Assembly: GCA_021806645.1 (NCBI GenBank)
Contig: JAJZQX010000004.1
Span: 186,001 to 250,000, forward strand
Source of the DNA: Myxococcales bacterium
GTDB lineage: Bacteria > Myxococcota > Myxococcia > Myxococcales > Anaeromyxobacteraceae
Length of the DNA: 64,000 nucleotides
Direction: 5' to 3'
The translations under genes were made by a program, and so were the position numbers. The notes under the pieces were generated by a model. It was not told where the DNA came from and made no database searches. It was given only the letters and a program-made list of their open reading frames with translations. Shown here one piece after another: positions 18,804-59,117 of this stretch. The first letter of the stretch is position 1, and every line of letters starts with the position of its first letter.

Positions 18804-19262
18804 CTACTGGATGGCTCCGCTCGACGCACTGAGCTTGTCGACGAGCGGTTGCATGTCGGCCAGCCGGCCACGACTGCTCGTCCTCGATGCCTTCGGCCCG
18901 AAGCCACGGCGCGCGCTGACGCCAGGCCTTTGCGGGATGGTTGCCGAGCCGTACGAGAGTGCTCGATGCTCATCGCCTCGCAGGGCGCCCTCGCCGAGTG
19001 GCCCGAGCTGTCCGCGCCAACGGACTTGCGACACCCGCAAGCGCGCCGCCGGGAGGAAGTGTGCAGCGGCGCCCGCCTGGCCCTCCTGGGCCCGTTCGCA
19101 TGGGTGCTGCGAATATCGACCCTGATAGATACCCCGGTCGCCGCGGTCGGCGTCCGAGTGGGCCAGGTGGCCGGAGGTCGCGAGGAGGACCACGGTCTCG
19201 GCGACTTCGCCGAGGCCCGGGGCCCACCCGACGGCCAACCACATGACCAGGAGGAACCGCAT
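18804..19262 (-). pseudogene. Chimeric remnant: CzcI-like head joined to a Met-rich lipoprotein tail
   Basis: This 152-codon frame begins with a near copy of the czc-operon protein (MRFLLVMWLAVGWAPGLGEV, then HLAHSDADRGD) but loses the His/Cys core of the 5885-6211 protein after about 45 residues. It ends in LADMQPLVDKLSASSGAIQ, which matches the C-terminus of the large lipoprotein at 19859-22408 (AGMQPLVDKLSTSTGMI). The middle is Arg/Gly-rich and resembles neither. The likeliest history is deletion fusing two gene fragments. DNA near 19150-19262 is also clearly similar to 6120-6211. Confidence 0.6.
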
Positions 19263-19390: not shown

Positions 19391-19807
19391 TCACCCGCCA
19401 CCACCTGCCGCCACCGGGACGGCGAACGCGGCCGGCGAGTTCGGCGCGATCGCCTGCAGCGGGACCGCGGGCGTGGCTCGGTGGTTCGACGCGTAGACGC
19501 CCATCCCGACGACCATCACGGCCATCATCACCCCCATCACGATCCACATCGAGGTCATGTGGTCGGAGTGGCCCGAGTGATCGCCATCGCCGGACCCCGG
19601 CAGCGGTGGAAGCTGCGGGAGGAGGTCGGTGGCCGGCAGCTGGCGCGTCCTCGGAGCCGAGACGCCCAGGTCAGGGGTGCGTGACGCGGCGGGAGCCGCC
19701 TGGGCCGATTCCACGAGGGCCGTGCTCGGGTCAGCGCCGCCGTCTTGCGGCACTGGCGCCTGGATGGGAAGGGCCGCATAGAGCACGTACGTCAGGGCGA
19801 GCAGCAT
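19391..19807 (-). CDS. Single-span membrane protein with His-rich and Met-rich motif, copy A
   Basis: A 138-aa protein with an N-terminal hydrophobic signal (MLLALTYVLYAALPI), a Pro/Ala-rich linker, and then GSGDGDHSGHSDHMTSMWIV at residues 71-90 leading into a Met-rich membrane helix (MGVMMAVMVVGMGVY). The tail is short and Ala/Gly-rich. A paralogue of exactly the same length lies at 33480-33896. The His-Asp patch at the membrane face followed by a helix full of Met suggests binding of Cu or Ag, but no family is recognised. It lies 51 nt downstream of the large Met-rich lipoprotein, probably in its operon. Confidence 0.7.
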   Translation of the reverse strand: MLLALTYVLYAALPIQAPVPQDGGADPSTALVESAQAAPAASRTPDLGVSAPRTRQLPATDLLPQLPPLPGSGDGDHSGHSDHMTSMWIVMGVMMAVMVVGMGVYASNHRATPAVPLQAIAPNSPAAFAVPVAAGGGG

Positions 19808-19858: not shown

Positions 19859-22408
19859 TCACGGCCCCGCGGGGATCATCCCCGTCGAGGTCGAGAGCTT
19901 GTCGACGAGGGGCTGCATCCCGGCGAGCGGGACGCCCGAGACGTTCATGCCGGAGCCGACGAACGAGGTCATGGCGGCGGCGAGCCCGGCGGTGCCGGCG
20001 CTCGACGACATCATGGTCCCGCCCCCGCCCATCATCCCGCCGGGCATGCCGGTCATGGTGATGGCGGTGGAGCCCATCTTCCCGTTCATGACGCCGTCCG
20101 AGGCGTCCTTGACCATCGCCGTGACCATGCCCGACGAGGAGCCGGTCATCCCCATCGTCTTGGCGTACTGGGACATCGCGGCGATCACCATGCCGTAGTC
20201 CTTCATGTCCTGGGTCGCGCCTATCCCCGAGCCGGCCACCGACGGGTCCATCGGCCGGGTCATGAGGATGTCGCCGACCATGAAGTAACTCCCGACCCCG
20301 GCGTTGGCCGACGCGGCGTTGGCCGAGGTCATGCCGCCGGCCATGGACTGCGCCATGCTCTGCGCCATCGAGGTGAGCGGCGTGACCTGGACGCCGGCGG
20401 TGGTCGCGCCCGACGCCACCGCGGGGATGCAGGCCGTCAGCACGTCGCCGGACTGCATCGCCATCGTCGTCCCGGTAGCCTCGTCCATGAACGTCCCGCC
20501 GGCCAGCTCGAGCATGACGGTGCCGGCGTAGGCGCCGAGGGGGATGCTGAACCCGCCCGACGCGCCGACCGCGGCCGAGCCGATCATCGGCCCCATGGTC
20601 CCGCCGCTCACGGCGTAGGCGGTCATGGTGCCTCCAGTGGTACTGCCCATGAACGCGGTCCCGCTCACCATGCCGTGGGGCGTGGCGACGCCGCCGGCAC
20701 CGGGGAGCTGGCCGTTCGATCCTGCCAGGTGCGTCATGAGCGCCTGCATGTCGGCCAGGGCCACTCCAGACCGGTTCATGGCGGAGCCGATGAAGGCTGC
20801 CATGGCGTCCGACATGGCCGTGGTCCCCGAGGCCGGCAGCATGGTGCCGCCCATCATGCCGCCCATGCCCATCATGGAGACGGCCGTCGAGCCCATCATC
20901 CCGTCCATCACGCCGTCCGAGGCGTCGTCCATCATCGCCGTCACCATCCCCGACGACGACGTCATCCCGAGCCCCATGGCCTCCTGGGACATGGCCGCCA
21001 GGGCCATGCCGTAGTTCTTCTGGTCCTGGGTGGCGCCCGTGCCGGCGCCCGCGACGGTCGGGTCCATGGGCATGGTCCGGAGGATGTCCCCCACCATGAA
21101 GTAGCTTCCGACCGCCGCATTGGCGGCGGCGACGTTGGCGGGCGTCATGCCGCCGCTCATGGCGGCCGCCCGGGCCAGGGCCATCGAGGTGAGCGGCGTG
21201 ATCTGCACGTCCGTCACCTGGGCGCCGGCTGCGAACGCGTCGATGCCGGCGGCCAGGTGGTCGCCGGACGCCACGGACATGGTGGTGCCGGAGGCCTCAT
21301 CGACGTAGGTCCCGCCGGTCATCTCCAGGGCGACCGGCCCGGTGTAGGTGCCCACCGAGACGGCATAGTGACCGGTGTCGTCGGTGGTGGCCGTGCCGAG
21401 CTGCGCACCCATCATCCCGCCGGCGATGGCGTGGGCCGTGACGGTCGCGCCGGCGACTGGGCCCTTGGTGGCCGCCCCGGAGATCATCCCGGCGGAGGTG
21501 CCACCGCCCGCCCCGGAGAGCTGACCGCTCGAGCCGGCCAGCTTGGTCATGAGGGCCTGCATGTCCGACATGGCGAGACCGGACTTGTTCATCGCGGAGC
21601 CGATGAAGGCCGCCATGGCGTCCGACATGCCGGTCGTGCCGGCGGTCGAAGCCATCATCGTCCCGCCCATCATCCCGCCGCCCATGGCGACGGGTGCGCC
21701 GCTCATCATCCCGTCCATCACGCCGTCGGCGGCGTCGCCCATCATGGCGGTGACGATGCCGGAGGACGCGGTCATGCCGAGGCCGTGGGCGTACTGGGAC
21801 ATGGCGGCGATGGCCATGCCGTAGTTCCGGGCGTCCTGGCTGGCCCCGGCGCCCGCTCCGGCCATCGTCGGGTTCATCGGGGCCACGTGGAGGATGTCGC
21901 TCACGGAGAAGTAGCTGCCGACCGCCGCGTTGGCGGCCGAGATGTTGGCGTCGGTGATGCCACCCGCCATGTGGTGGACCCGGGCGTGGGCCATCGAGGT
22001 GAGGGGCGTGACCTGGATGCCGGTAGTGGTGGCGTCCGCCATCACCGCGGGGACGGCGCAGGCCAACGCGTCCCCGGCGACCACCGTCATCGTGGTCCCG
22101 GTGGCTTCGTCGAGGTAGCTGCCGCCGGCCGTCTGCAGCATGAGCGGGCCGGCGTAGTGGCCGATGGAGATGGCGAAGTTGCCGGCGGCGTCGGTGGTGC
22201 CGCCTCCGACCTGGGCGCCCATCGTCCCGCCCGTGATGGCGTAGGCGCGGACGGTCGCGCCGCTCACCGGGCCGAGCACCACCGAGCCGCTGATGGTGCC
22301 GGTGGCGGGTGTCGGGTTGCTCGGCGGCATTGTGCTGCTCCCGCCGCACGCGAAGAGGAGGAGCGACGAGGCGAGGAGCGACGCTGCTGCGAGGAATGAC
22401 GGCTTCAT
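19859..22408 (-). CDS. Large Met-rich lipoprotein with three internal repeats
   Basis: An 849-aa predicted lipoprotein starting at the ATG at 22408, with lipobox LLFAC (Cys21) followed by a Ser/Pro linker. The rest is three tandem copies of a ~270-residue unit (residues 37-307, 308-579, 580-849). Each unit starts with a carboxypeptidase-regulatory-like strand pattern (SGxxxxGPVxGATV), has a VTPLTSMA motif, a VGSYFxVxDIL segment and a Met-rich block (GGMMGGTMM), and ends in DMQALMTKLAG. The Gly/Met blocks resemble Met-rich copper-binding segments of CopA/PcoA-type proteins. Role is unknown; surface or periplasmic metal binding is inferred. I see no sigma54 element upstream. Confidence 0.75.
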   Translation of the reverse strand: MKPSFLAAASLLASSLLLFACGGSSTMPPSNPTPATGTISGSVVLGPVSGATVRAYAITGGTMGAQVGGGTTDAAGNFAISIGHYAGPLMLQTAGGSYLDEATGTTMTVVAGDALACAVPAVMADATTTGIQVTPLTSMAHARVHHMAGGITDANISAANAAVGSYFSVSDILHVAPMNPTMAGAGAGASQDARNYGMAIAAMSQYAHGLGMTASSGIVTAMMGDAADGVMDGMMSGAPVAMGGGMMGGTMMASTAGTTGMSDAMAAFIGSAMNKSGLAMSDMQALMTKLAGSSGQLSGAGGGTSAGMISGAATKGPVAGATVTAHAIAGGMMGAQLGTATTDDTGHYAVSVGTYTGPVALEMTGGTYVDEASGTTMSVASGDHLAAGIDAFAAGAQVTDVQITPLTSMALARAAAMSGGMTPANVAAANAAVGSYFMVGDILRTMPMDPTVAGAGTGATQDQKNYGMALAAMSQEAMGLGMTSSSGMVTAMMDDASDGVMDGMMGSTAVSMMGMGGMMGGTMLPASGTTAMSDAMAAFIGSAMNRSGVALADMQALMTHLAGSNGQLPGAGGVATPHGMVSGTAFMGSTTGGTMTAYAVSGGTMGPMIGSAAVGASGGFSIPLGAYAGTVMLELAGGTFMDEATGTTMAMQSGDVLTACIPAVASGATTAGVQVTPLTSMAQSMAQSMAGGMTSANAASANAGVGSYFMVGDILMTRPMDPSVAGSGIGATQDMKDYGMVIAAMSQYAKTMGMTGSSSGMVTAMVKDASDGVMNGKMGSTAITMTGMPGGMMGGGGTMMSSSAGTAGLAAAMTSFVGSGMNVSGVPLAGMQPLVDKLSTSTGMIPAGP
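19862..22300 (-). repeat. Three tandem ~810-bp coding repeats
   Basis: Unit 1 spans 22300-21488, unit 2 21487-20672 and unit 3 20671-19862, all in frame within the lipoprotein gene. Units 1 and 2 are more alike in their second half (DAMAAFIGSAMN, DMQALMT) than either is to unit 3, whose end has diverged (MQPLVDKLSTS). Repeats of this size can recombine and could mis-assemble. Confidence 0.8.
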
Positions 22409-24167: not shown

Positions 24168-24212
24168 GAGCCAGGCGCCTCGCGCGTCTCCCTGGGCATG
24201 GAGGATGTGACC

Positions 24213-26669
24213 ATGCACCAGCACGACCAGGCGGCCGCCCCGATGGCGGCCAAGCACGACGCGGTCCGCGATCCCGTCTGCGGGATGACCGTGGACCCGA
24301 CCAGCCCGAAGGGCGGCCAGCTCCGCCACGAGGGGCACACCTACGGCTTCTGCAGCGCACGCTGCCGGGAGAAGTTCGCCGCCGACCCGCAGAGGTACCT
24401 CACGCCGGAGGTGGCGCAGCCCGCGCCTCCCTCGCCGGCCGCCGCCCGGTTCATCTGCCCGATGGACCCCGAGGTCGAGTCCGACCATCCGGGCCCCTGC
24501 CCGAAGTGCGGCATGGCGCTCGAACCGGCCGAGGTCGAGGCTCCGAGCCGGGTCGAGTACACCTGCCCGATGCACCCGGAAGTGGTGTCCACCGCGCCGG
24601 GCCACTGCCCGATCTGCGGCATGGCGCTCGAGCCCCGGACGGTGGCCGTCGAGGAGGCCAACCCCGAGCTCGACGACATGACGCGGCGGTTCTGGGCCGC
24701 CGCCGCGCTGGCGCTGCCGCTGTTCCTGGCCGGGATGTCCGACCTGATCCCCGGTCAGCCGCTGCAGCACCTGGTCTCGCCCGTGGTGCTCGCCTGGCTC
24801 GAGCTGGCGCTCGGGACCCCGGTGGTCCTCTGGGCGGGGTGGCCGTTCTTCCAGCGCGGGTGGGCCTCGGTGGTGAACCGCAGCCCCAACATGTTCACGC
24901 TCATCGCCACGGGCACCGGCGCGGCCTACCTCTTCAGCGTCGTCGTCACCGTGGCGCCATGGCTCATCCCCGCCGAGCAGCGGGGCCACGGCGGCGCCCT
25001 CCCCCTCTACTACGAGGCCGCCGCCGTCATCACGGCGCTGGTGCTCCTCGGCCAGGTCCTGGAGCTCCGGGCCCGGGCCAGCACCCGGGGCGCCCTGAAG
25101 GCGCTGCTCGGCCTCGCACCGAAGACGGCGCGGCTGGTGGATCCCCTCGGCGCCGAGCGCGACGTCCCGCTCGCCGAGGTGCGCAAGGGCGACCGGCTGC
25201 GCGTCCGCCCGGGCGAGAAGGTCCCGGTGGACGGGGTGGTGATCGAGGGCGAGAGCAGCGTGGACGAGTCGATGATCACCGGGGAGCCGCTGCCCGTGGA
25301 GAAGGCCCCCGGCGCCCGGGTGACCGGCGCCACCGTCAACGGCACCGGCACCTTCGTGATGCAGACCGAGCGCATCGGCAAGGACGCCCTCCTCGGCCAG
25401 ATCGTCCAGCTCGTGGGCCAGGCGCAGCGCAGCCGCGCCCCCATCCAGCGGCTGGCCGACGCCATCTCGGGGTGGTTCGTCCTGGCCGTGCTGGCGGTCG
25501 CCGCCGTGACCTTCATCGCCTGGCTGCTGGTGGGCCCGGCGCCTGCCCTGACTCACGCCCTCGTGAACGCGGTCGCCGTGCTCATCATCGCCTGCCCGTG
25601 CGCCCTTGGCCTGGCGACCCCCATGAGCGTGATGGTCGGCACCGGGCGAGGCGCGTCGGTCGGCGTGCTGGTCCGGGATGCGGAGGCGCTCGAGGTGATG
25701 GAGAAGGTGGACACCCTCCTCGTCGACAAGACCGGCACGCTCACCGAGGGTCGGCCGGCGCTGGCCACGGTCGAGGGGGCGGCGACCTTCGACGAGGCCA
25801 CCGTCCTGCGGCTGGCCGCCGGCGCGGAGAAGGGCAGCGAGCACCCGCTGGCGCGGGCCCTCCTGGAGGGCGCAGCCGCCCGGGGCATCGGCGTCCCGGC
25901 GTCGTCCGGGTTCCGGGCGCTGTCCGGGCGGGGGATCGTCGCGACCGTCGAGGGGCGGGCCGTCGGCCTGGGCAACGAGGCGCTGCTCACCGAGCTCGGC
26001 CTCGAGGCGGGCCCGCTCCTCGGGCGCGCCGTGGCGCTGCGGCGTGCCGGCCAGACGGTCATGTTCCTGGCCGTCGATGGCCGCCTGGCGGGGCTGGTCG
26101 GGGTGGCCGATCCGATCAAGCCGTCCACCCCGGAGGCGCTCCGGGCGCTGCGGGCCGACGGCCTGCGCATCGTCATGGTCACCGGCGACAGCCGCGCCAC
26201 CGCGGAGGCCGTCGCCAGGGAGCTCGGCATCGACGAGGTCGAGGCCGAGGTCCAGCCGGCCGAGAAGCACGCGGTGGTCGAGCGGCTGCGCGCCGCCGGC
26301 CGGGTGGTGGCCATGGCCGGCGACGGCATCAACGACGCCCCGGCCCTGGCGGCGGCCCACGTCGGCATCGCCATGGGCTCCGGCACCGACGTGGCCATGG
26401 AGAGCGCCGGCATCGTGCTGGTGAAGGGCGACCTGCGCGGGATCGTCCGCGCGCGTCGCCTGAGCCGGGCCACGCTGCGCAACATCCGGCAGAACCTCTT
26501 CTTCGCCTTCGCCTACAACTCGCTCGGCGTCCCGGTCGCGGCCGGCCTGCTCTACCCGTTCCTCGGCCTGCTCCTCAGCCCGATGCTCGCCAGCGCCGCC
26601 ATGAGCCTGAGCTCCGTCTCGGTCATCGCCAATGCGCTCCGGCTGCGGGGGGCGAATCTGGGCGGGTGA
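24213..26669 (+). CDS. copA: Copper-exporting P1B ATPase with YHS and two HMBD domains
   Basis: An 818-aa Cu(I) exporter. The N-terminus has a His-rich start, a YHS domain (DPVCGM at 20-25; FCSARC near 47-52), and two heavy-metal-binding domains (CPMDPE...CPKCGM at about 82-101; CPMHPE...CPICGM at about 118-137), with no HMA domain. Core motifs are TGEP, the CPC copper site ([13 protein letters not shown]), DKTGTLT and [10 protein letters not shown]. The ATG at 24213 has GGAGG 8 nt upstream; an ATG at 24198 is possible. It lies 45 nt after the corE-like gene and ends facing the leftward operon across a hairpin. Confidence 0.95.
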
Positions 26670-26728: not shown

Positions 26729-28078
26729 TTACTCGCCTTCGTCAGCATCTTCCGCCCCCGCGCGGCCGATGCTGGCCAGGAGCGAGTAGAGGCGGCGGCG
26801 GGTCACGCCGAGGAGCTTCGCGGCGTTGGTCTTGTTGCCGCCGGCTCGCTCGAGGGCCGCCTGGATGAGCTCCGCCTCGAAGCCGTCCAGACTGAAGCCC
26901 TCCCCGATGAGCTCTGCCACCCGGCGCCCCCGGGAGGTCGCTGGGCCGCCAGCGACGAGGTGCTGGGGACCGACCTCCGCCTCGCCGGACAGGATCAGTG
27001 CGCGCTCCAGCGCGTTCTCGAGCTCGCGAACGTTGCCCGGCCACGCCTGGGAGATCAGCCGCTCCCGGGCGGCCGCCCCGAGCTTGGAGGCCGGCAGCCC
27101 CTTCCCGGCCAGGAACCGCTCGGCCAGGGGCAGCACGTCCTCAGGACGTTCCCGGAGCGGAGGGACCCGGATTGCGAATACGTTCAGCCGGTAGAAGAAA
27201 TCCTCCCGGAATTGACCTGCCCGGACGGCCCCCTCGAGGTCCCGGTTCGTGGCGGAGATGACGCGCACGTCCACCTTGCTCGCGTCGGTGGCACCCAGCG
27301 GGACGAAGGTCCGCTCCTGGAGGAACCGGAGCAGCTTCACCTGGGTGGCCTGGGTGATCTCGCCGATCTCGTCGAGGAACAGCGTCCCACCACCCGCCGC
27401 CGCGAGGTGCCCGACCTTCCGGTGGGTGGCCCCCGTGAAGGCGCCGCGCTCGTACCCGAAGAGCTCGCCCTCGAGCAGGGTCTCGGGGAGGGCGGCGCAG
27501 TGGACCTCCACGAGCGGCGCCGCGGCGCGCTTGCCCTGGAAGTGGATGTACCGGGCCAGCTGGCTCTTGCCGGTCCCGCTCTCGCCGAGGAGGAGCACCG
27601 TCGCGTCGGTGGCCGCCACCTGGCGCGCAGCTGCGAGGGCGGCCTTCATGGCAGCGCTCTCGGCAACCAGCTCCGGCGTCAACCGTTCGAGGAGGCGGAC
27701 GCTGGATGCCTCGGCCTCCCGCTGGGCCGCCAGCCGGCGGACCCGCATCCGCAGTTCCTCCATCGAGAAGGGCTTGAGGACGTAGTCTGCCGCGCCGGCC
27801 TTCATCGCGGCGACCGCGTTCTCCGCGGTGCCGTAGGCGGTCATGAGCACGACCTCAGGCGGGCGGGGACGCGCTCGGGCCGCGGCCAGCACGGCCAACC
27901 CGTCCACCTCCGGCATCCGCAGGTCGGTGACCACGACATCGATGTCGCGGGTGGCCAGGGCGACCAGCGCCTCGCGGCCGCCGCCGGCCTTGAGGACCTC
28001 GTGGCCGTCGAGGGCCAGCATCTCGGCGATGAGCCTGCCGAGCTTCGGTTCGTCGTCCACCACCAGGACTCGGTTCAC
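26729..28078 (-). CDS. NtrC-family sigma54 activator (response regulator A)
   Basis: A 449-aa response regulator with a GTG start overlapping the kinase stop by 4 nt (GTGA). Receiver: VVDDE start and Asp52 in TDLRMP. AAA+ domain: Walker A GESGTGKS, the sigma54-contact loop GAFTGA intact, Walker B LFLDEIGE. C-terminal Fis-type helix-turn-helix NKTNAAKLLGVTRRRLYSLL. It is the last gene of the Met/His-rich envelope operon and probably activates that operon's own sigma54 promoter at 32226-32241. Whether it also controls the GTGACC regulon is open. Confidence 0.93.
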   Translation of the reverse strand: MNRVLVVDDEPKLGRLIAEMLALDGHEVLKAGGGREALVALATRDIDVVVTDLRMPEVDGLAVLAAARARPRPPEVVLMTAYGTAENAVAAMKAGAADYVLKPFSMEELRMRVRRLAAQREAEASSVRLLERLTPELVAESAAMKAALAAARQVAATDATVLLLGESGTGKSQLARYIHFQGKRAAAPLVEVHCAALPETLLEGELFGYERGAFTGATHRKVGHLAAAGGGTLFLDEIGEITQATQVKLLRFLQERTFVPLGATDASKVDVRVISATNRDLEGAVRAGQFREDFFYRLNVFAIRVPPLRERPEDVLPLAERFLAGKGLPASKLGAAARERLISQAWPGNVRELENALERALILSGEAEVGPQHLVAGGPATSRGRRVAELIGEGFSLDGFEAELIQAALERAGGNKTNAAKLLGVTRRRLYSLLASIGRAGAEDADEGE

Positions 28079-29331
28079 GTCCGTTTCCCTCCGGGCGCGA
28101 GCGGCACCGCCAGCGTGAAGACGGCGCCGGGTGGCCCTGCATCCGCCAGCTCCAGCGATCCGCCGAGGCGCTCCACGATCCGGCGGGAGATGGCAAGCCC
28201 GAGGCCGGTGCCGTCGACGCGCCCCGAGGCGAACGGGTCGAACAGCTTGACCTGGAGCTCCTCGGGGATGCCGGGGCCATCGTCGCGCAACTCCAGCCTG
28301 GCCTGGCGTCCGTCGGCGTGGCCTCGCACCTCCACGCGGGTTGCGCCAGCCTGGCAGGCGTTGGTGAGGAGGTTTCCCAGCACCTGCCGCAGCCGGCCCG
28401 GATCGGCAACGACCTGGAGCGGGGGCACGTCGACCTTCACCTCGACGGCTGCCCAGGCGTGCCCCAGCCCGCGTGCCGCCTCCTCCACCAGTGCGCCGAG
28501 GTCGACCGGCTGCGGCTCCAGCCGCGGCTCCCTGGCCAGGTCGAGGAAGTCCTCGGTGAGTCGATTGAGCCGCTGTACCTCGTCGAGGACGTCCTGTAGT
28601 GCCCCCTGGTCGATGGCTTCGAGCCGCTCTCCGGCACGCGCCCGGACCAGCTCCGCCGCGCCCCGGATGATGCCAAGCGGATTGCGCACCTCGTGGGCCA
28701 CCATCGCGGCCATCCGAGCCAGCGCGCCACCGCGGGCGCCCCGCTCGGCCTCGGCGCGGCGCAGCGCCTCGGTGCGAGCCCATTGCCAGGCCGCCGCCGC
28801 GAGGGCCAAGGCCACGAGGCCGGAGAGGATAACGCCGCCGAGCAGTGCCCGGCGAAGGGCCTGTCGTGACGCGGCGAACTCCTGCCCGGCCTCCAGCGCG
28901 AGCACCGCGATCACCCGGCCGGCCGGGTCGCGGACCGGAAAGTAGCCGGTGGCGATGGGCTGGTCCCCCACGGTGAAGGCGACCGCGACCGTGGGCTCCC
29001 CAGCCTGCGCCCTTGCCGCACGACCCATGTCGGTCCGAAGCAGGTCAGCCCTCCCGCCGGCCGGACCGGTCGCGTCGGCCAGGACGGTCCTGCCTGGGCC
29101 CAGGAGGTAGGCCCCCTCCAGCTTGCTCGACCGCATGAGCGCCCGCAGCACCTCAGGGGAGGCGCTCACTGGCGTGAGCAGGGTCGCCGCGGTCTCGCCG
29201 GCTCCAAGCAGGCGCTCCTCGAGGACCCGCTCCAGGGCGGCGTCGGCGGCCGCGTGGAGGTAGAGCGTGGCGCCGAGCGCGCCTGCCAGGCCTAGGAGGC
29301 CCGCCACCAGGGGCAGCGCGGCACGACGCAT
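28075..29331 (-). CDS. Sensor histidine kinase of the Met/His-rich envelope operon
   Basis: A 418-aa kinase. Two membrane helices (about residues 4-26 and 165-187) bracket a periplasmic sensor of about 140 residues, followed by H-box MVAHEVRNPLGIIRG, N-box NLLTNACQAGA and GLGLAISRRIVERLGG. The class matches kinases that partner NtrC-type regulators. Its start overlaps the stop of the beta-barrel gene by one base and its stop overlaps the regulator, so all are translationally coupled. The periplasmic domain has no Cys and few His residues, so a direct metal site is not evident. Confidence 0.92.
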   Translation of the reverse strand: MRRAALPLVAGLLGLAGALGATLYLHAAADAALERVLEERLLGAGETAATLLTPVSASPEVLRALMRSSKLEGAYLLGPGRTVLADATGPAGGRADLLRTDMGRAARAQAGEPTVAVAFTVGDQPIATGYFPVRDPAGRVIAVLALEAGQEFAASRQALRRALLGGVILSGLVALALAAAAWQWARTEALRRAEAERGARGGALARMAAMVAHEVRNPLGIIRGAAELVRARAGERLEAIDQGALQDVLDEVQRLNRLTEDFLDLAREPRLEPQPVDLGALVEEAARGLGHAWAAVEVKVDVPPLQVVADPGRLRQVLGNLLTNACQAGATRVEVRGHADGRQARLELRDDGPGIPEELQVKLFDPFASGRVDGTGLGLAISRRIVERLGGSLELADAGPPGAVFTLAVPLAPGGKRT

Positions 29332-30791
29332 CAGAGCCCCTTCGTCCAGGCGATGCCGACGGTCGGCACCAGCTTCGAGTAGCTCGCGGAAGGGGCGTTG
29401 GACCGGACCTCCCGGCCCTCGAGGGCCGCGCGGATCGTCCACGCCGTGCCGACGTCCCACTCGAGCAGGAGGGTTCCGTCCAGCGTCGTGTCCGCGCGCT
29501 TCAGCGCCAGCGTGCTATCGTACGCTGCGTACTGCCGCCAGGCCAGCCCGGCTTCCAGGCCAGCGCGGAAGGTGGGCGTGAAGACGGCGTGGAGCTCGGC
29601 GCGGGGGCCGTGCTCGTCATAGGACGCGACGCCTGCGTGGGCGGCATCATGGGTGAACCCGTACCGCAGGGCGGCCCATGCCTGGGGAAGGAAGGTCCAG
29701 GCAGCCTTGACCTCCGCCCGCTGCAATGTGCCGGAGAAGGGCTGGTAGGCCGTGGCGTAGTCCTCCAGCCTCGCGAAGTAGAGGGTGCTCCAGGTCCAGT
29801 CTCCGGTGGTGACCCACCCTGAGCCCAGCAGCCGGTGCGCCAGGAGATAGGGTGAGCTACCGAAGCGCTGGTCTCCGAACGCGTACTCGCCGAGCACGCC
29901 GTGGCCCGCCCGAGCCCACTGCCACCCCGCGGCGGCCTCGCCCACGGCGAGGTCATACCCGTTCTGCTGGAGGTACCGCCGCACCGAGCCGATGCCCCGC
30001 AGGTATGGACCGCTCGGTCCGAGCGGTCGCCACAGGGCCGAGAGTGCCAGGTCGTAGAGCCCGTCGCCGTTCATGAAGGCCCCCGAGCCGCCCATCGAGC
30101 CGCCCCCCATCATGCCTCCGCTCGCGGAGCCCGTCCCGCCGGCTTGACTCGCCAGCGAGACGTTCGAGTCCGCTCCGACGCGAGCCTCGAAGCCGATCAC
30201 CAGCGGCCCGTCCCGCTGGGCCATGCGGGAGAGGGTCGCCGCCATGGCGGCGAGCCCCTGGTTGGTGGCGCTGGCGTCGAACAGCGAGGCCGCCTGCGCC
30301 GAGCGTCCCGCGCGGAGGGCCAGGAGGCCCAGGTAGAACCGGGAGAGCTCCTGATGTTCGGGAGCGCCCTCCGCCTCCTCGAGGGCGGCCTCGGCGGCGG
30401 CGTCCTCCCCGAGCCTGTAGCGGCAGACGCCCTCGAGGAGCGCGGCGGAGCGGTCTCCGCTGCGCCGTGCCTTGGCGAATGACTCGGCGGCGCCCTTCAG
30501 GTCACCGGCCGACATGCGCCGCTGGCCCTCCGTGAAAGCATCCTGGGCGTCGGCCGACGCCCCCTCGGCGCAGAGCGCCCGGAGCGCCTGGCGGGATGCG
30601 GCGTCCGCGGGGTCGAGTGCGGCGGCCTTGCGATAGGCGACGGTCGCCGTGCCGCGGAACCCTGCGATGCGCTCGGCGTCGCCGGCGCGCCGGTAGAGCG
30701 TCGCAGCCTCGCGATCGGGGCTTGCCGCGGTGTCGACCGGGGCGCAGGGATCCTGGGCCGCCAGCGCCAGCAGCAGGAGCTGGGTGATCAC
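29331..30791 (-). CDS. TPR-plus-beta-barrel outer-membrane protein with Met-rich loop
   Basis: A 486-aa exported protein. After a short signal, residues 25-190 are TPR-like helical repeats (Ala-rich, with AYRKAAALDPADAASRQAL). From about 197 onwards the sequence alternates like outer-membrane beta strands with aromatic girdles (GWQWARAGHGVLGEYAFG, TTGDWTWSTLYFARL) and ends in a strand (VPTVGIAWTKGL). The plan resembles TPR/beta-barrel assembly modifiers. An insertion at 226-240, GMMGGGSMGGSGAFM, repeats the Met motif of the lipoprotein at 19859-22408. Function unknown; possibly an outer-membrane port for the upstream Met/His-rich protein or for metal. Confidence 0.72.
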   Translation of the reverse strand: MITQLLLLALAAQDPCAPVDTAASPDREAATLYRRAGDAERIAGFRGTATVAYRKAAALDPADAASRQALRALCAEGASADAQDAFTEGQRRMSAGDLKGAAESFAKARRSGDRSAALLEGVCRYRLGEDAAAEAALEEAEGAPEHQELSRFYLGLLALRAGRSAQAASLFDASATNQGLAAMAATLSRMAQRDGPLVIGFEARVGADSNVSLASQAGGTGSASGGMMGGGSMGGSGAFMNGDGLYDLALSALWRPLGPSGPYLRGIGSVRRYLQQNGYDLAVGEAAAGWQWARAGHGVLGEYAFGDQRFGSSPYLLAHRLLGSGWVTTGDWTWSTLYFARLEDYATAYQPFSGTLQRAEVKAAWTFLPQAWAALRYGFTHDAAHAGVASYDEHGPRAELHAVFTPTFRAGLEAGLAWRQYAAYDSTLALKRADTTLDGTLLLEWDVGTAWTIRAALEGREVRSNAPSASYSKLVPTVGIAWTKGL

Positions 30792-31385: not shown

Positions 31386-32180
31386 TCAGTGGTGCGGGCC
31401 AGGCATCGGCGCAGGAGCGGTGGGGCCGATCGGCGCAGGCGTACCGGGCAGCGGAGTGGCGGGCGGCGGCGTCCCGGGCATGGTCGTGCCCGGCGGCGTG
31501 GTGCCGGGGGAGGGAGTTCCCGGCGTCATGGTGCCCGGCGCGGAGGTTCCGGGGGTGGTCGTGCCCGGCGTCATCGTGCCCGGCATCGTGGTCCCCGGCA
31601 TGGAGCCCGGAGTCGTCGTGCCAGGCGTCCCGGAGCCGCCGCCCATCATCCCGCCACCAGAGCCCCCGGGCATGCCACCCGGGTGCATCTGCTGCATGTT
31701 CTGCTGCATCGCGGGGGTGTCCATTCCGGCGCCGCTACCCATCATCGTGCCGCTGGACGCGCCGCCCATCATGGCGGGGCCGCGCGCCCCGCCGCCGTTC
31801 GGCCCGCCGCCCATGGCGGCGCCCATGGCCGCCTTGTTGGCCGCATCCACGTGGTTTGCACCTGCAGCGTGCATCCCGGCGCCCTGGGCGCCGTGATGCG
31901 GCATGCCCTTGGGCATCGCTGCCTGTCCGGCCCCGTGCTGCGCCGGAGCCGCCCCATTGGCGGGGGTACCCGCCATCCCAGGCATGCCCTGGTGGTTCCC
32001 CATCATGGCGCCCGGGGTCGCGTGATCCGGCATCGCCGGCGCACCTTCCGGCGTGGTCGCCTGGGCGTGCATCGCGTCGTGCATGGCCTGGTGCGCCGCC
32101 GCACCGGCCTCCTGGGCGCTGCCCCGACCCGCCGCGATGAGACCTGCCGCGGCGACTGCGTACTTCCAGCTCTTCGTCAT
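31386..32180 (-). CDS. Exported Met/His-rich low-complexity protein with PGT repeats
   Basis: A 264-aa protein with a signal peptide (MTKSWKYAVAAAGLIAAGRG, cleaved near SAQ). Residues 25-180 are rich in Met, His, Gly and Ala, with motifs such as HQAMHDAMHAQ, GNHQGMPGMAG, MPHHGAQGAGMHAAG and GGMMGGGSG, all plausible Cu(I)/Ag ligands. From about 184 to 250 it is a Pro-Gly-Thr repeat (PGTTTPGSMPGTTMPGTMTP), probably an extended stalk. First gene of an operon with TPR, beta-barrel, kinase and sigma54-activator genes. No family recognised. A periplasmic or surface metal sponge is the inference. Confidence 0.72.
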   Translation of the reverse strand: MTKSWKYAVAAAGLIAAGRGSAQEAGAAAHQAMHDAMHAQATTPEGAPAMPDHATPGAMMGNHQGMPGMAGTPANGAAPAQHGAGQAAMPKGMPHHGAQGAGMHAAGANHVDAANKAAMGAAMGGGPNGGGARGPAMMGGASSGTMMGSGAGMDTPAMQQNMQQMHPGGMPGGSGGGMMGGGSGTPGTTTPGSMPGTTMPGTMTPGTTTPGTSAPGTMTPGTPSPGTTPPGTTMPGTPPPATPLPGTPAPIGPTAPAPMPGPHH

Positions 32181-52647: not shown

Positions 52648-52708
52648 TTGGTGGGAGCGTGCCTCGTCGTCCTGAAGCTCTTTCCTCATGACCGCCCAGA
52701 AGGCCACG

Positions 52709-54118
52709 ATGACCAGAATCCTCAGCGCCTTGCCAGCGCTCCTCCTCGCAGCCTCGGCCCTGGCTGACCCAACCTCCACCGCCACCCCGGGAACCGCCAC
52801 CGATCCGGTCCTCGCGGAGCTCATCCGCGACAGCCTGGCCCACCGGCCGGAGCTCCGGCAGGCCGCCGCGCTCGTCCAGGCCGAGCGGGAGCGGGTTCCG
52901 CAGGCCGGCGTCTGGCAGGACCCGGTGCTGACGCTCGGGCTCCAGAACGACGGCTTCAACGGCCTGCAGATCGGGAAGATGGAGACCAGCTACTACCAGG
53001 TCATGGTCACCCAGCCGATCCCCTGGCCCGGCAAGACCGGCCTGCGCACCGAGGTGGCCTCCACCGGCGCGCGGCTCGCCGAAGCCTCCGTCTCGAGGGC
53101 CCGCCTGACCGCCGAGGCGGATGTCCGGCGCGCCTACCTCGATCTCCTGCTGGTCCGGGACCGGCTGGCGCTCCTGGTCAAGCTGGAGGCGCTCTGGGTC
53201 AAGTCGGAGGGGCTGGCCCGCACTCGCTACGAGGCGAGCGAGGGCGCGCAGTCCGACATCCTGCGCGCCCAGCTGGAGCGCAACCGCCTGCGCCAGCGCC
53301 GCTGGGCGCTCGAGGCCGAGGAGCGGACCAGCCTCCAGGCCATCAACCGGCTGCGGGCGCACCCGCTCGACGAGCCGCTCCAGACCACGGCGTCGGTCCG
53401 CCAGCTGGGCCTCCCCGCGGTGCCCGAGGTCGAGGCGGCCCTGGCCGACGCCGAGCAGCGCAGCCCGGAGCTCCTGCAGGCGCGGCTCCAGGCGCAGCGC
53501 GCCGCCTCCCAGGTGGCCCTGGCGAAGCGGGATCGCTGGCCAGACCTGGCCGTGACCGCCGCCCTCATGCCGCGCGGGAGCCTGGAGCCCATGTGGGCGG
53601 CCGGCGTCTCGATCACGCTGCCGATCTTCTCGGGCTCCAAGCAGTCGAGGGCGGTGGCCGAAGGGGAAGCCCGCGCCGCGGCCAGCGACGGCGGCGTCGA
53701 GGCGGTCCAGCAGGTGCTGCGCCTCCGGGTCCAGGAGCGGATCGCCCAGCTCACCAACCTGGTGGAGTCGGCCGCCATCTACCGGGACGGCCTCCTCGTC
53801 CAGTCGCAGGCCACGGTCGACAGCACCATGAGCCAGTACCGCGTCGGCCGCGTCACCTTCGCCTCCGTGCTGGAGGCCGTCAGCGGGGTCATCTCCGACG
53901 AGGACGGCTACCTGCAGACCGTCGCGGCCTCCCAGCGGATCGCCATCGCGGCCGACGAGGTCAGCCTGGACGCGGCCGGCGGCGGCGCCGCGGGCCTCTC
54001 CGGAGCGGCGATGCCCGGCGCCGGGGCGACCGGTTCGGGCGGCCCGGCCTCGGCTGGCGCCACGCCCTCGGCCGCCGGCGACGCCGGTTCCTCCTCCTCT
54101 TCCATGAACAAGATGTAG
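52709..54118 (+). CDS. cusC: Outer-membrane factor of the cus-type pump (TolC family)
   Basis: A 469-aa exported channel; ATG at 52709 has AGAAGG 7 nt upstream. Signal peptide (ILSALPALLLAASALAD), then two TolC repeats: QAGVWQDPVLTLGLQNDGF with the family's PIPWPGKTGLRTEVA, and later MPRGSLEPMWAAGVSITLPI. The C-terminus is a long Gly/Ala/Ser-rich low-complexity tail (after residue ~430) ending SSSSSMNKM. It supplies the outer-membrane duct for the adaptor and pump downstream. Confidence 0.9.
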   Translation: MTRILSALPALLLAASALADPTSTATPGTATDPVLAELIRDSLAHRPELRQAAALVQAERERVPQAGVWQDPVLTLGLQNDGFNGLQIGKMETSYYQVMVTQPIPWPGKTGLRTEVASTGARLAEASVSRARLTAEADVRRAYLDLLLVRDRLALLVKLEALWVKSEGLARTRYEASEGAQSDILRAQLERNRLRQRRWALEAEERTSLQAINRLRAHPLDEPLQTTASVRQLGLPAVPEVEAALADAEQRSPELLQARLQAQRAASQVALAKRDRWPDLAVTAALMPRGSLEPMWAAGVSITLPIFSGSKQSRAVAEGEARAAASDGGVEAVQQVLRLRVQERIAQLTNLVESAAIYRDGLLVQSQATVDSTMSQYRVGRVTFASVLEAVSGVISDEDGYLQTVAASQRIAIAADEVSLDAAGGGAAGLSGAAMPGAGATGSGGPASAGATPSAAGDAGSSSSSMNKM

Positions 54119-54131
54119 CCCTGGAGCATCC

Positions 54132-55832
54132 ATGACGACCGACAACACGACCGAAGTGACCGCCTCGCCGCGCCGCCCCCGCCGCCTCCTCGGCTACGCC
54201 CTGGTGGCGCTCGCCAGCCTGGCGCTCGGCAGCGTGGGCACCTCCCTGCTCTCCCGCTCCGGCGGCGACGGGCACGATCACGGCACGGCGGCCGCCAAGG
54301 ACCAGTACCAGTGCCCGATGCACCCGACCATCGTCCAGGACCACCCCGGCGACTGCCCGATCTGCGGCATGAAGCTCGTCAAGATGGCGGGCGCCGCGCC
54401 AGGCGAGGCCGCCAAGCCGGCCGCGGCCGAGGCCAAGCCCCAGTACCAGTGCCCCATGCACCCGACGGTCGTATCGGACCACCCGTCCGACTGCCCGATC
54501 TGCGGCATGAAGCTCGTCAAGATGGCCGCGGCGGCGAAGGAGCCGTCCTCGCCGGCCGCCTCGGGCCAGGTCCAGTACCAGTGCCCCATGCACCCCAACG
54601 TCCACCAGGACAAGCCTGGCGACTGCCCGCTCTGCGGCATGAAGCTCGAGAAGCTCAACGAGAGCGGTGCCTTCGACGTGCCGCCGGGAGAGCGCAAGAT
54701 CGCCTTCTACCGCTCGCCCATGGACCCCAAGCAAACCTCGCACACGCCCCGCAAGGACGAGATGGGCATGGACTTCGTCCCGGTCTACCTCGACGAGCTC
54801 CAGGCGACTGGCTCGGTCTCCGGCCTGGTCACCGTGAAGATCGACCCGGCCCGGCAGCAGCTCATCGGCCTGGTGACCACCAAGGCCACCGAAGGCTCGA
54901 TCAGCGGCGCGCTCCGGACCACGGGGCGCGTGGCCGTCGACGAGACGCGTGTCCACAAGGTCAACGTGAAGTTCGGCGGGTTCGTCGAGACGGTCCAGGC
55001 CGACTTCGTCGGCCGGACCGTGCAGCGCGGTGAGCCGCTCTTCTCCATCTACAGCCCCGAGCTCCTGGCGGCCCAGGAGGAGCTCGTGCTCGCCCTCAAG
55101 ACCCAGCAGGACCTGTCATCGGCCAAGGGCCTCGTCGGCAACGGCGACGACCTGGTGGCCTCGGCGCGGCGCAAGCTCCAGTTGTGGGACGTCCCGGCCG
55201 CCACCGTCGCCCGCATCGAGCAGACCAGGCAGGCGGAGCGCACCGTGACCGTCACGTCCCCGACGGGCGGCGTGGTGGTCAAGAAGGAGATCGTCCCCGG
55301 CATGCGGATCGAGGCCGGCGGCATGCCGTACGAGATCTGGGACCTCTCCTCGATCTGGGTCCTGGCGGACGTCTACGAGACCGAGCTGCAGCAGGTGAAG
55401 GTGGGCAGCCCAGTCACCCTCACCCTGAAGGCCTTCCAGGGCAAGGAGTTCCAGGGCCGGGTCGCCTTCGTCGATCCCGTCCTCGATCCCAAGACCCGCA
55501 CCGCCAAGGTCCGCATCGCCGTGGCCAACCCAGGGGGGCTCCTCAAGCCCGAGATGTTCGGCGAGGTGGTCCTGGGCACGCCGTCACGGAAGGCGCTGCG
55601 CATCCCGACCGACGCGGTCATCGACTCCGGGACCCGCAGCGTCGTCTTCGTCGCGCTGGGAGACGGCAAGTTCCAGCCGCGAGTGGTCCGGCTCGGCGCC
55701 ACCGACGGCGACCAGATCGAGGTGCAGGACGGCCTGGCCGCCGGCGACCAGATCGTCACGCGGGCCAACTTCCTGGTCGACTCCGAGTCGCGCCTCAAGG
55801 CCTCCCTGCAGGCGCTCGGCGGGGGGAAGTAA
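54132..55832 (+). CDS. cusB: Periplasmic adaptor with three heavy-metal-binding domains (CusB-like)
   Basis: A 566-aa adaptor. One N-terminal helix (LLGYALVALASLALGSVGTS), a His motif (GDGHDHG), then three tandem HMBDs, each YQCPMHP...CPxCGMKL (about residues 59-82, 105-128, 149-172). A degenerate fourth (FYRSPMDP...DEMGMDFVPVY), standard for CusB, precedes the HlyD barrel-sandwich core (VHKVNVKFGGFVETVQADFV). Most CusB proteins have no or one HMBD; three would let the adaptor present several Cu/Ag ions to the pump. The pump gene follows after 3 nt. Confidence 0.92.
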   Translation: MTTDNTTEVTASPRRPRRLLGYALVALASLALGSVGTSLLSRSGGDGHDHGTAAAKDQYQCPMHPTIVQDHPGDCPICGMKLVKMAGAAPGEAAKPAAAEAKPQYQCPMHPTVVSDHPSDCPICGMKLVKMAAAAKEPSSPAASGQVQYQCPMHPNVHQDKPGDCPLCGMKLEKLNESGAFDVPPGERKIAFYRSPMDPKQTSHTPRKDEMGMDFVPVYLDELQATGSVSGLVTVKIDPARQQLIGLVTTKATEGSISGALRTTGRVAVDETRVHKVNVKFGGFVETVQADFVGRTVQRGEPLFSIYSPELLAAQEELVLALKTQQDLSSAKGLVGNGDDLVASARRKLQLWDVPAATVARIEQTRQAERTVTVTSPTGGVVVKKEIVPGMRIEAGGMPYEIWDLSSIWVLADVYETELQQVKVGSPVTLTLKAFQGKEFQGRVAFVDPVLDPKTRTAKVRIAVANPGGLLKPEMFGEVVLGTPSRKALRIPTDAVIDSGTRSVVFVALGDGKFQPRVVRLGATDGDQIEVQDGLAAGDQIVTRANFLVDSESRLKASLQALGGGK

Positions 55833-55835
55833 GCC

Positions 55836-58800
55836 ATGATCAAAGCCATCATCCGCTTCAGCGCGACCAACAAGTACCTGGTCGTCGCCGCCACCATGGT
55901 TGCCCTGGCGGGCGCTTGGTGGTCGATGAAGAACATCCCGCTCGACGCCCTGCCGGACCTCTCCGACACGCAGGTGATCGTCTACTCCAAGTGGGACCGG
56001 AGCCCGGACATCATCGAGGATCAGGTCACCTACCCGATCACCACCGCCCTGCTCGGCGCGCCGCGGGTCAAGGCCATCCGCGGCTTCTCGGACTTCGGCT
56101 TCAGCTACGTCTACGTCATCTTCGAGGATGGCACGGACATGTACTGGGCGCGGACCCGCGTCCTCGAGTACCTGTCCAAGATCCAGCCGCAGCTCCCGGC
56201 GGGCGTGACGACGGAGCTTGGACCGGATGCCACCAGCGTCGGGTGGGTCTTCCAGTACGCGCTGGTGGACAAGACTGGCACCCACTCGTCCGACGAGCTC
56301 CGCTCCTATCAGGACTGGAACCTGCGCTACGCCGTCCAGAGCGTGCCGGGCGTCTCCGAGGTGGCCACGGTGGGCGGGCAGGTCCGCCAGTACCAGATCA
56401 CGGTCAACCCCAACGCCCTCGCCTCCTACAAGCTCCCGCTCGAGAGCGTCATCAACGCCGTCCGGCGCGGCAACAACGACGTCGGGGGTCGGCTCGTCGA
56501 GCTCTCCGGCCGCGAGTACATGGTCCGCGGCCGCGGCTACGTGAAGACCCTGGCCGACCTCGAAAGCCTGGTCCTCAAGTCGGAGGGTGGCACCCCGGTC
56601 ACCGTGAAGGACGTGGCCACCGTGGCGCTCGGCCCGGAGATGCGCCGCGGCATCGCCGACTTCGACGGCCAGGGCGACGTGGTGGGCGGCATCGTGGTGA
56701 TGCGTTCCGGCGAGAATGCCCTCAACGTCATCAACCGGGTCAAGCAGAAGCTCGAGGACATCAAGCCCTCCCTGCCCAAGGGCGTCGAGGTGGTCACCAC
56801 CTACGACCGCTCCGAGCTCATCGACCAGGCCATCGAGACGGTGAAGGGGAAGCTCATCGAGGAGATCATCGTGGTCTCCATCATCATCCTTATCTTCCTC
56901 TGGCACATCCCGAGCGCCATCATCCCCATCGTCACCATCCCGGTGAGCGTGGCCCTGGCCTTCATCCCCATGTACTTCATGGGGCTCAACGCCAACCTCA
57001 TGTCGCTGGCCGGCATCGCCATCTCCATCGGCGTGCTGGTGGACGGGGCCATCGTGGAGGTGGAGAACGCCTACAACAAGATCCACCACTGGGACGCCGG
57101 GGGTCGAAAAGAGGACTTCCACCACGTGCGACTGGAGGCCCTGCTGGAGGTGGGGCCGGGGGTATTCTTCTCGCTGCTGGTCATCGCCGTGGCCTTCATG
57201 CCGGTCTTCACCCTGGTGGACCAGGAGGGGCGGCTCTTCCGGCCGCTCGCCTACTCGAAGAACCTGGCCATGGCCATCGCCGCGTTCCTGGCCATCACCC
57301 TCGACCCGGCCATGCGGATGATGTTCGCCCGCATCGACCCTTTCACGTTCAAGCCGCGCTGGGTGGCCAAGGTCGCGGACGCCGTCTTCGTCGGCAAGTA
57401 CCACTCGGAGGAGAAGCACCCCATCAGCGCCTTCCTCCACAAGATCTACGAGCCGCCCTGCCGCCTCGTGCTGCGCCACCCCAAGGCCACCATTGGCCTG
57501 GCCCTGCTGCTGGTGGCCACCACCGTCCCCGCCTACATGAAGCTCGGCTCCGAGTTCATGCCGCCGCTGCGGGAGGGGACCATCCTCTACATGCCCTCTG
57601 CTGTGCAGCCCGGCATGTCGGTCGCCGAGGCGCAGAAGGCGCTCCAGGTCCAGGACAAGATCCTGATGACCTTCCCGGAGGTGGAGCGGGTCTTCGGCAA
57701 GGCCGGCCGCGCGGCCACCTCGACCGATCCGGCCCCATTCACCATGATGGAGACCACCGTCATCCTGAAGCCGGAGCAGGAGTGGCGCGAGAAGCCGCGC
57801 TGGTACTCCTCGTGGGCCCCGGGCTGGAGCAAGTCCGTGCTCCGGTCGTTCTGGCGCGACCGGATCACCGAGGACGATCTCAAGAACGAGATGGACGCCG
57901 CATTGCAGCTGCCTGGCATCTCCAACGCCTGGACCATGCCCATCCGCGGCCGGCTCGACATGCTCTCCACCGGCATCCGCACCCCGGTCGGCATCAAGGT
58001 GAGCGGGGCGGATCTCAAGGTCATCGAGCAGACCGCCCAGGAGATCGAAGCGGTGGTGCAGAAGGTCCCGGGGACCCGCAGCGTCTACGCCGAGCGGGTG
58101 GCTGGAGGCTACTTCCTCGACTTCGTCCTCAAGCGCGACCAGCTTGCGCGCTACGGCCTCTCGGTCGACGACGCCAACATGATGGTCATGACCGCGGTCG
58201 GCGGCGACAACCAGACCACCACGGTCATGGGGCGCGAGCGCTACGGCGTGTCGGTCCGCTACGCCCGCGACTACCGCGAGGACCTCTCGGCCCTCAAGCG
58301 GGTCCTGCTTCCCCTGCCGAGCGGCCAGGGTCAGATCCCCATGGAGGAGATCGCCACCGTCGAGCTCGTGCAGGGGCCGTCGATGATCCGCGACGAGAAC
58401 GGCCTGCTGGCCGGCTACGTCTACGTTGACTTCGACACCTCCAAGATCGACGTCGGCAGCTACGTCGAGGAGGCCAAGAAGGCGGTCGCCACCGGCATCA
58501 AGCTCCCCACCGGCTACAACCTGGCCTGGAGCGGCCAGTACGAGAACATGCTGCGCGTGAAGGAGCGGCTCAAGCTCATCCTCCCGATCACGCTGGTGCT
58601 CATCTTCGCCCTCCTCTACATGAACACCAAGAGCGCGGTGAAGGCCTCCATCGTCATGCTGGCGGTCCCCTTCTCGGCCATCGGCGCCGTCTGGCTCATC
58701 TGGGCGCTCGGCTACAACGTCTCCATCGCCGTCTGGGTCGGCATGATCGCCCTCATGGGGCTCGACGCCGAGACCGGAGTGTTCATGCTGCTGTTCCTGG

Positions 58801-59117
58801 ACCTCTCCCACGACGAGGCCAAGGCGGCCGGCAAGCTCCGCGACGAGAAGGAGCTCATCGAGGCCATCATCCACGGTGCTGTGAAGCGCGTCCGCCCCAA
58901 GGCCATGACCGTCTTCGCGGCCATGATCGGCCTCTTGCCCATCATGTGGTCTACCGGCACCGGCGCCGACCTCATGAAGCGGATCGCCGCCCCCATGGTC
59001 GGCGGCCTCGTCACCAGCTTCCTCATGGAGCTGCTGGTCTACCCGGCCGTCTACTTCCTCTGGAAGCGGAAGGAGTTCACGAAGCCCACGCCGTCCGCCG
59101 ACCCCGTGACGGCCTGA
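55836..59117 (+). CDS. cusA: CusA-type copper/silver RND efflux pump
   Basis: A 1093-aa inner-membrane pump. N-terminal helix, the LDALPDLSDTQVIVYSKWD segment typical of CusA, two periplasmic loops, and the HME signature VDGAIVEVENAYNKIHHW near residue 400, which matches the CusA/SilA group. Several Met residues expected for a copper relay occur in the periplasmic cleft (e.g. FMPPLREGTILYMP and PAPFTMMETTV). Third gene of a sigma54-controlled operon. With the activator divergent, a copper/silver stress role is likely. Confidence 0.95.
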   Translation: MIKAIIRFSATNKYLVVAATMVALAGAWWSMKNIPLDALPDLSDTQVIVYSKWDRSPDIIEDQVTYPITTALLGAPRVKAIRGFSDFGFSYVYVIFEDGTDMYWARTRVLEYLSKIQPQLPAGVTTELGPDATSVGWVFQYALVDKTGTHSSDELRSYQDWNLRYAVQSVPGVSEVATVGGQVRQYQITVNPNALASYKLPLESVINAVRRGNNDVGGRLVELSGREYMVRGRGYVKTLADLESLVLKSEGGTPVTVKDVATVALGPEMRRGIADFDGQGDVVGGIVVMRSGENALNVINRVKQKLEDIKPSLPKGVEVVTTYDRSELIDQAIETVKGKLIEEIIVVSIIILIFLWHIPSAIIPIVTIPVSVALAFIPMYFMGLNANLMSLAGIAISIGVLVDGAIVEVENAYNKIHHWDAGGRKEDFHHVRLEALLEVGPGVFFSLLVIAVAFMPVFTLVDQEGRLFRPLAYSKNLAMAIAAFLAITLDPAMRMMFARIDPFTFKPRWVAKVADAVFVGKYHSEEKHPISAFLHKIYEPPCRLVLRHPKATIGLALLLVATTVPAYMKLGSEFMPPLREGTILYMPSAVQPGMSVAEAQKALQVQDKILMTFPEVERVFGKAGRAATSTDPAPFTMMETTVILKPEQEWREKPRWYSSWAPGWSKSVLRSFWRDRITEDDLKNEMDAALQLPGISNAWTMPIRGRLDMLSTGIRTPVGIKVSGADLKVIEQTAQEIEAVVQKVPGTRSVYAERVAGGYFLDFVLKRDQLARYGLSVDDANMMVMTAVGGDNQTTTVMGRERYGVSVRYARDYREDLSALKRVLLPLPSGQGQIPMEEIATVELVQGPSMIRDENGLLAGYVYVDFDTSKIDVGSYVEEAKKAVATGIKLPTGYNLAWSGQYENMLRVKERLKLILPITLVLIFALLYMNTKSAVKASIVMLAVPFSAIGAVWLIWALGYNVSIAVWVGMIALMGLDAETGVFMLLFLDLSHDEAKAAGKLRDEKELIEAIIHGAVKRVRPKAMTVFAAMIGLLPIMWSTGTGADLMKRIAAPMVGGLVTSFLMELLVYPAVYFLWKRKEFTKPTPSADPVTA

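Follow-up and report, generated by a model that had tools for sequence, protein, structure and literature searches.

Classical methionine-motif Cu(I)/Ag(I) proteins of the SilE, CusF and Ctr type are characterized by MxM, MxxM or MM spacing, and most of the Met-rich buffers known for copper and silver are short or disordered. The sponges SilE, CopM and CopI are described as extracytoplasmic copper/silver proteins that are Met-rich or have Met-rich regions, SilE being described as intrinsically disordered. A different function is proposed for MrpX, which is presented as a Met-rich periplasmic peptide acting as an oxidant sink, encoded together with the putative reductase YedYZ and belonging to the SigF/NrsF regulon (PMC4623255). 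On the structural side, PgcA of Geobacter sulfurreducens is described as an extracellular cytochrome with three hemes that is required for reducing Fe(III) oxide and is predicted to be a surface lipoprotein (PMC5732950), and its non-heme domain is reported to end at Met252 (PMC11520253). Here we describe a lipoprotein of three tandem units which, like the sponges, is rich in methionine and, like PgcA, is predicted to be a lipoprotein, the model of one unit having a PgcA-like fold.

The protein is encoded in a stretch of 64,000 nucleotides from a Myxococcales bacterium (contig JAJZQX010000004.1 of assembly GCA_021806645.1, positions 186,001 to 250,000), hereafter the window, whose coordinates are used below and in Table 1. 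The open reading frame lies on the minus strand, from an ATG at 22408, with GAAAGG on its 5' side, to a stop at 19859, and encodes 849 residues. Residues 16-21 (LLLFAC, read by eye) are lipobox-like, which predicts Cys21 as the site of lipid attachment with Gly at position +2, the Phe at -2 being unusual. The frame and the lipobox-like start agree with the sequence-only reading, which had proposed an 849-residue lipoprotein made of three complete repeats of about 270 residues. Self-comparison indeed gives three units of 270-272 residues, with pairwise identities of 65.4% (unit 2 with unit 1), 54.3% (3 with 1) and 59.4% (3 with 2), and at the DNA level the repeats are spaced by 816 and 810 nt. 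A search against Rfam gave no match.

Table 1. Coordinates of the features of the repeat protein and of its surroundings in the window.
Feature	Position	Strand	Remarks
Signal peptide and lipobox LLLFAC|G	22346..22408	(-)	by eye; relatives keep ...AACGGG / ...FACGGG
Unit 1, residues 37-306	21491..22300	(-)	27 Met
Unit 2, residues 307-578	20675..21490	(-)	32 Met; modelled at pLDDT 90.1
Unit 3, residues 579-849	19862..20674	(-)	35 Met
GGGMMGG block, unit 1	21662..21682	(-)	
GGMMGG block, unit 2	20846..20863	(-)	
GGMMGG block, unit 3	20024..20041	(-)	
DDASDGVMDG acidic loop, unit 2 copy	20900..20929	(-)	pattern conserved in Met-rich and low-Met units
138-aa Met/His membrane protein	19391..19807	(-)	51 nt downstream of repeat gene, same strand
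ECF sigma gene	23601-24167		
Copper-translocating P1B ATPase	24198..26669	(+)	TIGR01511, 586 bits against a cut-off of 397
Sigma-54 response regulator and sensor kinase, ZraR/ZraS-like	26729..29331	(-)	below equivalog cut-offs
486-aa TPR and predicted beta-barrel protein	29331..30791	(-)	GGMMGG at residue 225; barrel as proposed by the sequence-only reading
264-aa exported Met-rich protein	31386..32180	(-)	11.4% Met; GGMMGG at residues 175-181
OEP, CusB-like adaptor, CusA/CzcA heavy-metal efflux pump	52688..59117	(+)	

Judged from its predicted genes, the surroundings of the repeat gene are a metal-resistance island. The copper ATPase has a YHS/HMBD-like N-terminus (by eye). The window also encodes another heavy-metal ATPase, this one of the Cd/Zn type (TIGR01512, 497.6 bits where the cut-off is 313.5), and two CusA/CzcA pumps (TIGR00914, 1077 bits each against 701). 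The adaptor listed in Table 1 passes TIGR01730 (126.5 bits against 94.9) and stays below the cut-off of the CusB model, while the OEP was called by eye and from its match to relatives. The gene of the 138-residue protein is likely to lie in the same operon as the repeat gene. When up to 2 mismatches were allowed, a sigma-54 promoter pattern was found 11 times where 6.87 matches were expected, none of them just upstream of the repeat gene. The island also holds two similar small exported proteins starting MRFLLVMWLA(I/V)G, at 5885-6211 (-) and 18804-19262 (-).

Methionine accounts for 96 of the 849 residues (11.3%), compared with a median of 1.79% over the 52 window genes of at least 100 aa called by a simple purpose-written script, so that the abundance of Met claimed from the letters is borne out; within the window this share is equalled only by that of the 264-residue exported protein. 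The GGMMGG motif is common to the repeat protein, the 486-residue protein and the exported protein, as the sequence-only reading had stated, and the 4.14-Mb genome contains 9 copies of its coding DNA pattern, 5 of which lie inside the window, against 0 for the reversed control pattern. The description of each unit as a beta domain combined with Gly/Met blocks is right about the blocks, but these carry only a minority of the methionines and the rest are dispersed across the whole fold. Using 5000 shuffles, we found Met pairs no more frequent than chance at i+1 (11 vs 10.8), i+2 (4 vs 10.7) and i+3 (7 vs 10.8); pairs at i+4 were enriched (21 vs 10.8 expected, p 0.0006). The repeat protein thus differs from the classical Met-motif proteins, whose enriched close spacing is absent here, and close-spaced motifs were rejected as proof of copper sites.

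A model of unit 2, computed with 28 units as alignment, reached a pLDDT of 90.1 and a pTM of 0.89 and comprises nine strands with helices after them, a Gly/Met stretch at about residues 198-222 forming a less certain loop. A model of the full-length protein from 3 sequences had a mean pLDDT of only 41.8 and was set aside. Among PDB entries the unit 2 model best matches the PgcA non-heme domain (9i0d). Foldseek gives E 5.6e-5 over 147 columns with a modest TM by target of 0.46, and VIA gives Z 11.0 and rmsd 3.4 over 160 of 201 residues at 22% identity; 9i0e follows with Z 8.5 over 151 aligned residues at 20% identity, and over both programs the structure-based identity to 9i0d is 22-24%. The other PDB rows are mostly transthyretin- and Ig-like half-matches, with Z up to 5.4. 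A single unit therefore has a confidently predicted fold that is PgcA-like over its whole length, whereas the carboxypeptidase-regulatory-like label given to it earlier finds support only in matches to transthyretin and carboxypeptidase regulatory domains at about residues 1-100 of the unit, and has no Pfam match behind it. Against the whole repeat protein Pfam returned only bMG3 and Big_6, both below cut-off, and searches of the PDB sequence set with the protein and with Met-rich and low-Met unit profiles gave no meaningful match and did not reach PgcA. The architectures differ as well: PgcA has one such domain followed by three hemes and TPT repeats, whereas the repeat protein has three domains at 11% Met, and no CxxCH heme motif is present in its 849 residues. 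Its acidic loop looks like a Ca2+ loop, and from the spacing we would guess that it corresponds to the site of D208/D212, mutated in 9i0d.

Relatives were found at 13 loci in one scan and, as the sequence-only reading had suggested looking for, one-repeat homologues exist alongside two- and three-unit forms. The family spans Anaeromyxobacter, Betaproteobacteria, Nitrospirota and a Gemmatimonadaceae MAG, with three units in A. oryzae and two MAGs, and two units in Betaproteobacteria, the Gemmatimonadaceae MAG and others. The repeat protein is single-copy in its own genome. E-values of the whole-genome search fell into two groups, Met-rich matches below 1e-50 and, in the remaining genomes, weak best matches above 1e-42. 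Among the matches listed, Met-rich proteins occur in 11 of 195 Myxococcota genomes, all from the organism's own family (11 of its 24 genomes), in 8 of 245 genomes of the Nitrospirae MAG's phylum (one being a fragment), and in 2 of the 399 genomes from the family to which the Aquabacterium MAG belongs. In the plasmid collection all matches were distant, at 27-37% identity, and came from Vibrio, Myxococcus and Tenderia.

In a tree of 85 of the 95 units (dropping those that covered fewer than 225 profile positions, as well as sequences identical to or contained in others) the 52 Met-rich units are monophyletic, with a FastTree support of 0.873. All 52 contain 7.3-14.2% Met, compared with 0-2.6% in 32 low-Met relatives from Myxococcota, Nitrospirota and Burkholderiales, which are full-length profile homologues of the unit (E 1e-9 to 1e-41), mostly placed near the N-terminus of larger lipoproteins, many of whose ORFs have about 500-1700 aa. 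Every one of the 52 Met-rich units and 30 of the 32 low-Met ones carry the acidic DxxxDGxxDG-like loop. Homologues without the Met blocks, which the sequence-only reading had named as evidence against itself, thus occur only outside the clade, and since these distant relatives are nearly Met-free, the comparison of sequences shows Met enrichment to be a derived and conserved trait of one branch, by which that reading is not refuted. In 25 columns half or more of the Met-rich units have Met; in the relatives 13 of these columns are hydrophobic (L, I, V, F, M), 11 hold other kinds of residue and 1 is an insertion. At M103 and M230 the share of Met-rich units with Met is 98%. Between Met-rich units of 45-70% identity Met sites are retained at 66%, compared with 50% for Leu, 42% for Val and 38% for Ile, and fall below Gly, Tyr, Phe and Asp. 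A two-unit Nitrospirota protein with 7-9% Met (L163:8072-9700 (-); L129/L163), which has several small Met-rich neighbour genes, lies outside the core clade and may represent an independent enrichment; being intermediate, L129/L163 was excluded from both the 52-unit core and the low-Met controls. A. oryzae also encodes a 606-residue lipoprotein (L083:9218-11038 (-)) in which a CxxCH cytochrome-like region, matching Pfam Cytochrom_C below cut-off, lies N-terminal to one Met-rich unit. The family is undescribed in the literature searched, which was covered mainly at listing level with most subscription papers outside reach, making this absence a weak one; what appears to be new here is a Met-rich variant with a PgcA-type domain as its base.

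Of the 31 Met-rich loci, 11 have copper markers nearby (CopA-type ATPase, CusA/CzcA pump, multicopper oxidase, CusF, DUF411 and cupredoxin), compared with none of the 25 low-Met loci (Fisher p 0.0006), with thresholds common to both groups that were fixed after the scores had been seen, and with some loci not independent, since the members of L082/L083, L075/L085, L141/L155 and L147/L148 share a genome within each pair. Without one near twin and the two loci from which the markers were taken, the count is 8 of 28 Met-rich loci (p 0.0047), and counting L129/L163 as low-Met gives 26 control loci, still with 0 markers. The anchor gene was missed by the caller in L074 and in five low-Met loci (L081, L160, L161, L165, L175), which were kept in the counts. 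The company is not universal: 20 of the 31 Met-rich loci have no copper marker, and most Anaeromyxobacter loci (L073, L075, L076, L077, L082, L083 and L085) have none, several lacking any copper gene within about 8 kb. In other phyla the Met-rich relatives adjoin multicopper oxidase, CusF, DUF411, CusCBA and CopA genes; at L146 the repeat gene overlaps a multicopper oxidase gene by one base, with CusF, cupredoxin, DUF411, a CopA-type ATPase and an RND pump nearby, the identities of the markers being confirmed by Pfam. A Pfam tally of 122 of the 138 near neighbours (L074 and L075 lie outside that set) is headed by DUF6502 (5), followed by E1-E2 P-type ATPase (4), Cu-oxidase_3 (4) and sigma-70 region 2 (4). 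In five loci of Betaproteobacteria (L146, L149, L150, L151, L152) the repeat gene has a DUF6502 gene, possibly encoding a regulator, beside it or close by. Neighbours of 60-400 aa with at least 8.5% Met number 28 of 283 at Met-rich loci vs 2 of 238 at low-Met loci. A small Met-rich protein recurs near the repeat gene in Nitrospirota (CAEQWLKxAIDLHExHxKDPKTATEASQxEMMDQMKKAYGC; L138:9352-9948 (-), without Pfam match, L143:9395-9691 (-) and L163:309-569 (-)).

The same genome holds a second metal cluster (C23:103000-119000 and 124000-137000; L176, L177) from which the repeat protein is absent. It encodes paralogues of the 138-, 264- and 486-residue proteins, the last keeping GGMMGG, together with a ZraSR-like pair. 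At a distance of about 20 kb this contig also carries a 176-residue Met-rich, lipoprotein-like GGMMGG gene, a CopA-type ATPase and a CusA-type pump. A family of small exported proteins of 172-176 aa with the pattern CPMxVxGTxV...NGE/NGV and Met/Gly stretches, without Pfam match, occurs here (L006/L007 in C23) and elsewhere (L010:3277-3795 (+), L072:9979-10503 (-)), adjoining the repeat gene in two loci.

That the repeat protein soaks up metal is probable, because its gene sits among copper-resistance genes in several unrelated bacteria; the fuller proposal, in which a surface domain of the PgcA type was recruited as a Cu(I)/Ag(I) sponge anchored in the envelope, stands, in our estimate, about evenly between right and wrong. 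Its chief rival, which we consider rather unlikely, is a sacrificial sink in which envelope methionines would scavenge hypochlorite or other oxidants and be re-reduced by methionine sulfoxide reductase, in the manner of MrpX. Dispersal of Met over the fold without close-spaced ligand motifs would suit such bulk thioether capacity, an ECF sigma gene is present in the window, and the A. oryzae gene is preceded by genes for an ECF sigma factor and for an anti-sigma factor of the NrsF family, the regulator pair reported for MrpX (PMC4623255). However, while the MrpX peptide is described with its own putative reductase gene (PMC4623255), phmmer searches with the MsrB-MsrA and Oxidored_molyb proteins of the bacterium's own genome detected no homologue of MsrA/MsrB or of a molybdopterin oxidoreductase in the genes called at 57 loci (31 Met-rich and 26 distant). 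One MsrB-MsrA protein is encoded in the genome, on another contig, and the recurrent neighbours are copper genes.

The fold itself could point instead to a PgcA-like surface scaffold that anchors or spaces extracellular redox or mineral-binding proteins, its methionines serving packing or mineral/metal contact. The best fold match, the A. oryzae protein with a CxxCH region before its unit, and cytochrome c-like genes near three loci are consistent with this; yet CxxCH is found in that 1 anchor protein only, the same domain occurs in relatives at 0-2.6% Met without copper genes nearby, and both the conservation of Met and the copper company would be left unexplained, so that we judge a pure scaffold decidedly unlikely. 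We disfavour as highly improbable that the sequence drifted neutrally towards Met-rich low complexity without its methionines serving as ligands: many of the changes from Leu, Ile or Val to Met are conservative, but in many such columns 80-98% of the 52 Met-rich units, which come from several phyla, have Met, Met has a single codon, and the surrounding genes have the low median given above. The sponge has evidence against it too, since methionines at the 13 columns that are hydrophobic in relatives would be poor ligands if buried, unless the fold opens locally. As for the convergent or shared copper-ligand design suggested by the sequence-only reading, the metal island, the copper-gene neighbours in other phyla and the recurrence of GGMMGG in the second cluster speak for it, whereas the lack of enrichment from i+1 to i+3 and the several Anaeromyxobacter loci without a copper gene speak against it, so that on balance it is supported in part.

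In the Cu(I)/Ag(I) sponge as we picture it, three tandem PgcA-type domains, rebuilt with Met at surface and core, would form a high-capacity thioether buffer outside the cytoplasm, the lipoprotein probably being placed at the outer membrane or the cell surface. Metal exported by the CopA-type ATPase or CusCBA-type pumps, or entering from outside, would be bound by exposed methionines, the candidate ligands being those of the Gly/Met loop after the acidic loop and those on helix faces, with which the excess of i+4 Met pairs agrees, and free Cu(I) would be kept low by buffering. At loci with a multicopper oxidase, Cu(I) may be held until its oxidation, with a presumed hand-over, and the capacity of the buffer would be set by the number of units, from 1 to 3. 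Considering that close-spaced motifs are not enriched and that core-like methionines are unlikely ligands in the folded state, bulk capacity appears a better picture than defined Cu(I) sites. In contrast to the intrinsic disorder described for SilE, the repeat unit has a confidently predicted globular fold.

A bolder version, distinctly improbable in our view, is that core and surface methionines turned a PgcA-type electron-transfer domain into a modular extracellular Cu(I)/Ag(I) store whose capacity rises with the number of units, heme-fused forms such as that of A. oryzae reducing Cu(II) at the surface and passing Cu(I) directly to the Met domain. If true, this would join metal respiration to copper detoxification. 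The repeat protein itself presents a domain of predicted globular fold with 27-35 Met per unit, partly at positions that are hydrophobic in relatives, which has kept its fold markers and is distributed, as single or tandem copies, over several phyla. The low-Met relatives constitute a natural control, the same domain with and without Met, which makes it testable whether bulk thioether content, without spaced motifs, is enough for metal buffering or oxidant scavenging.
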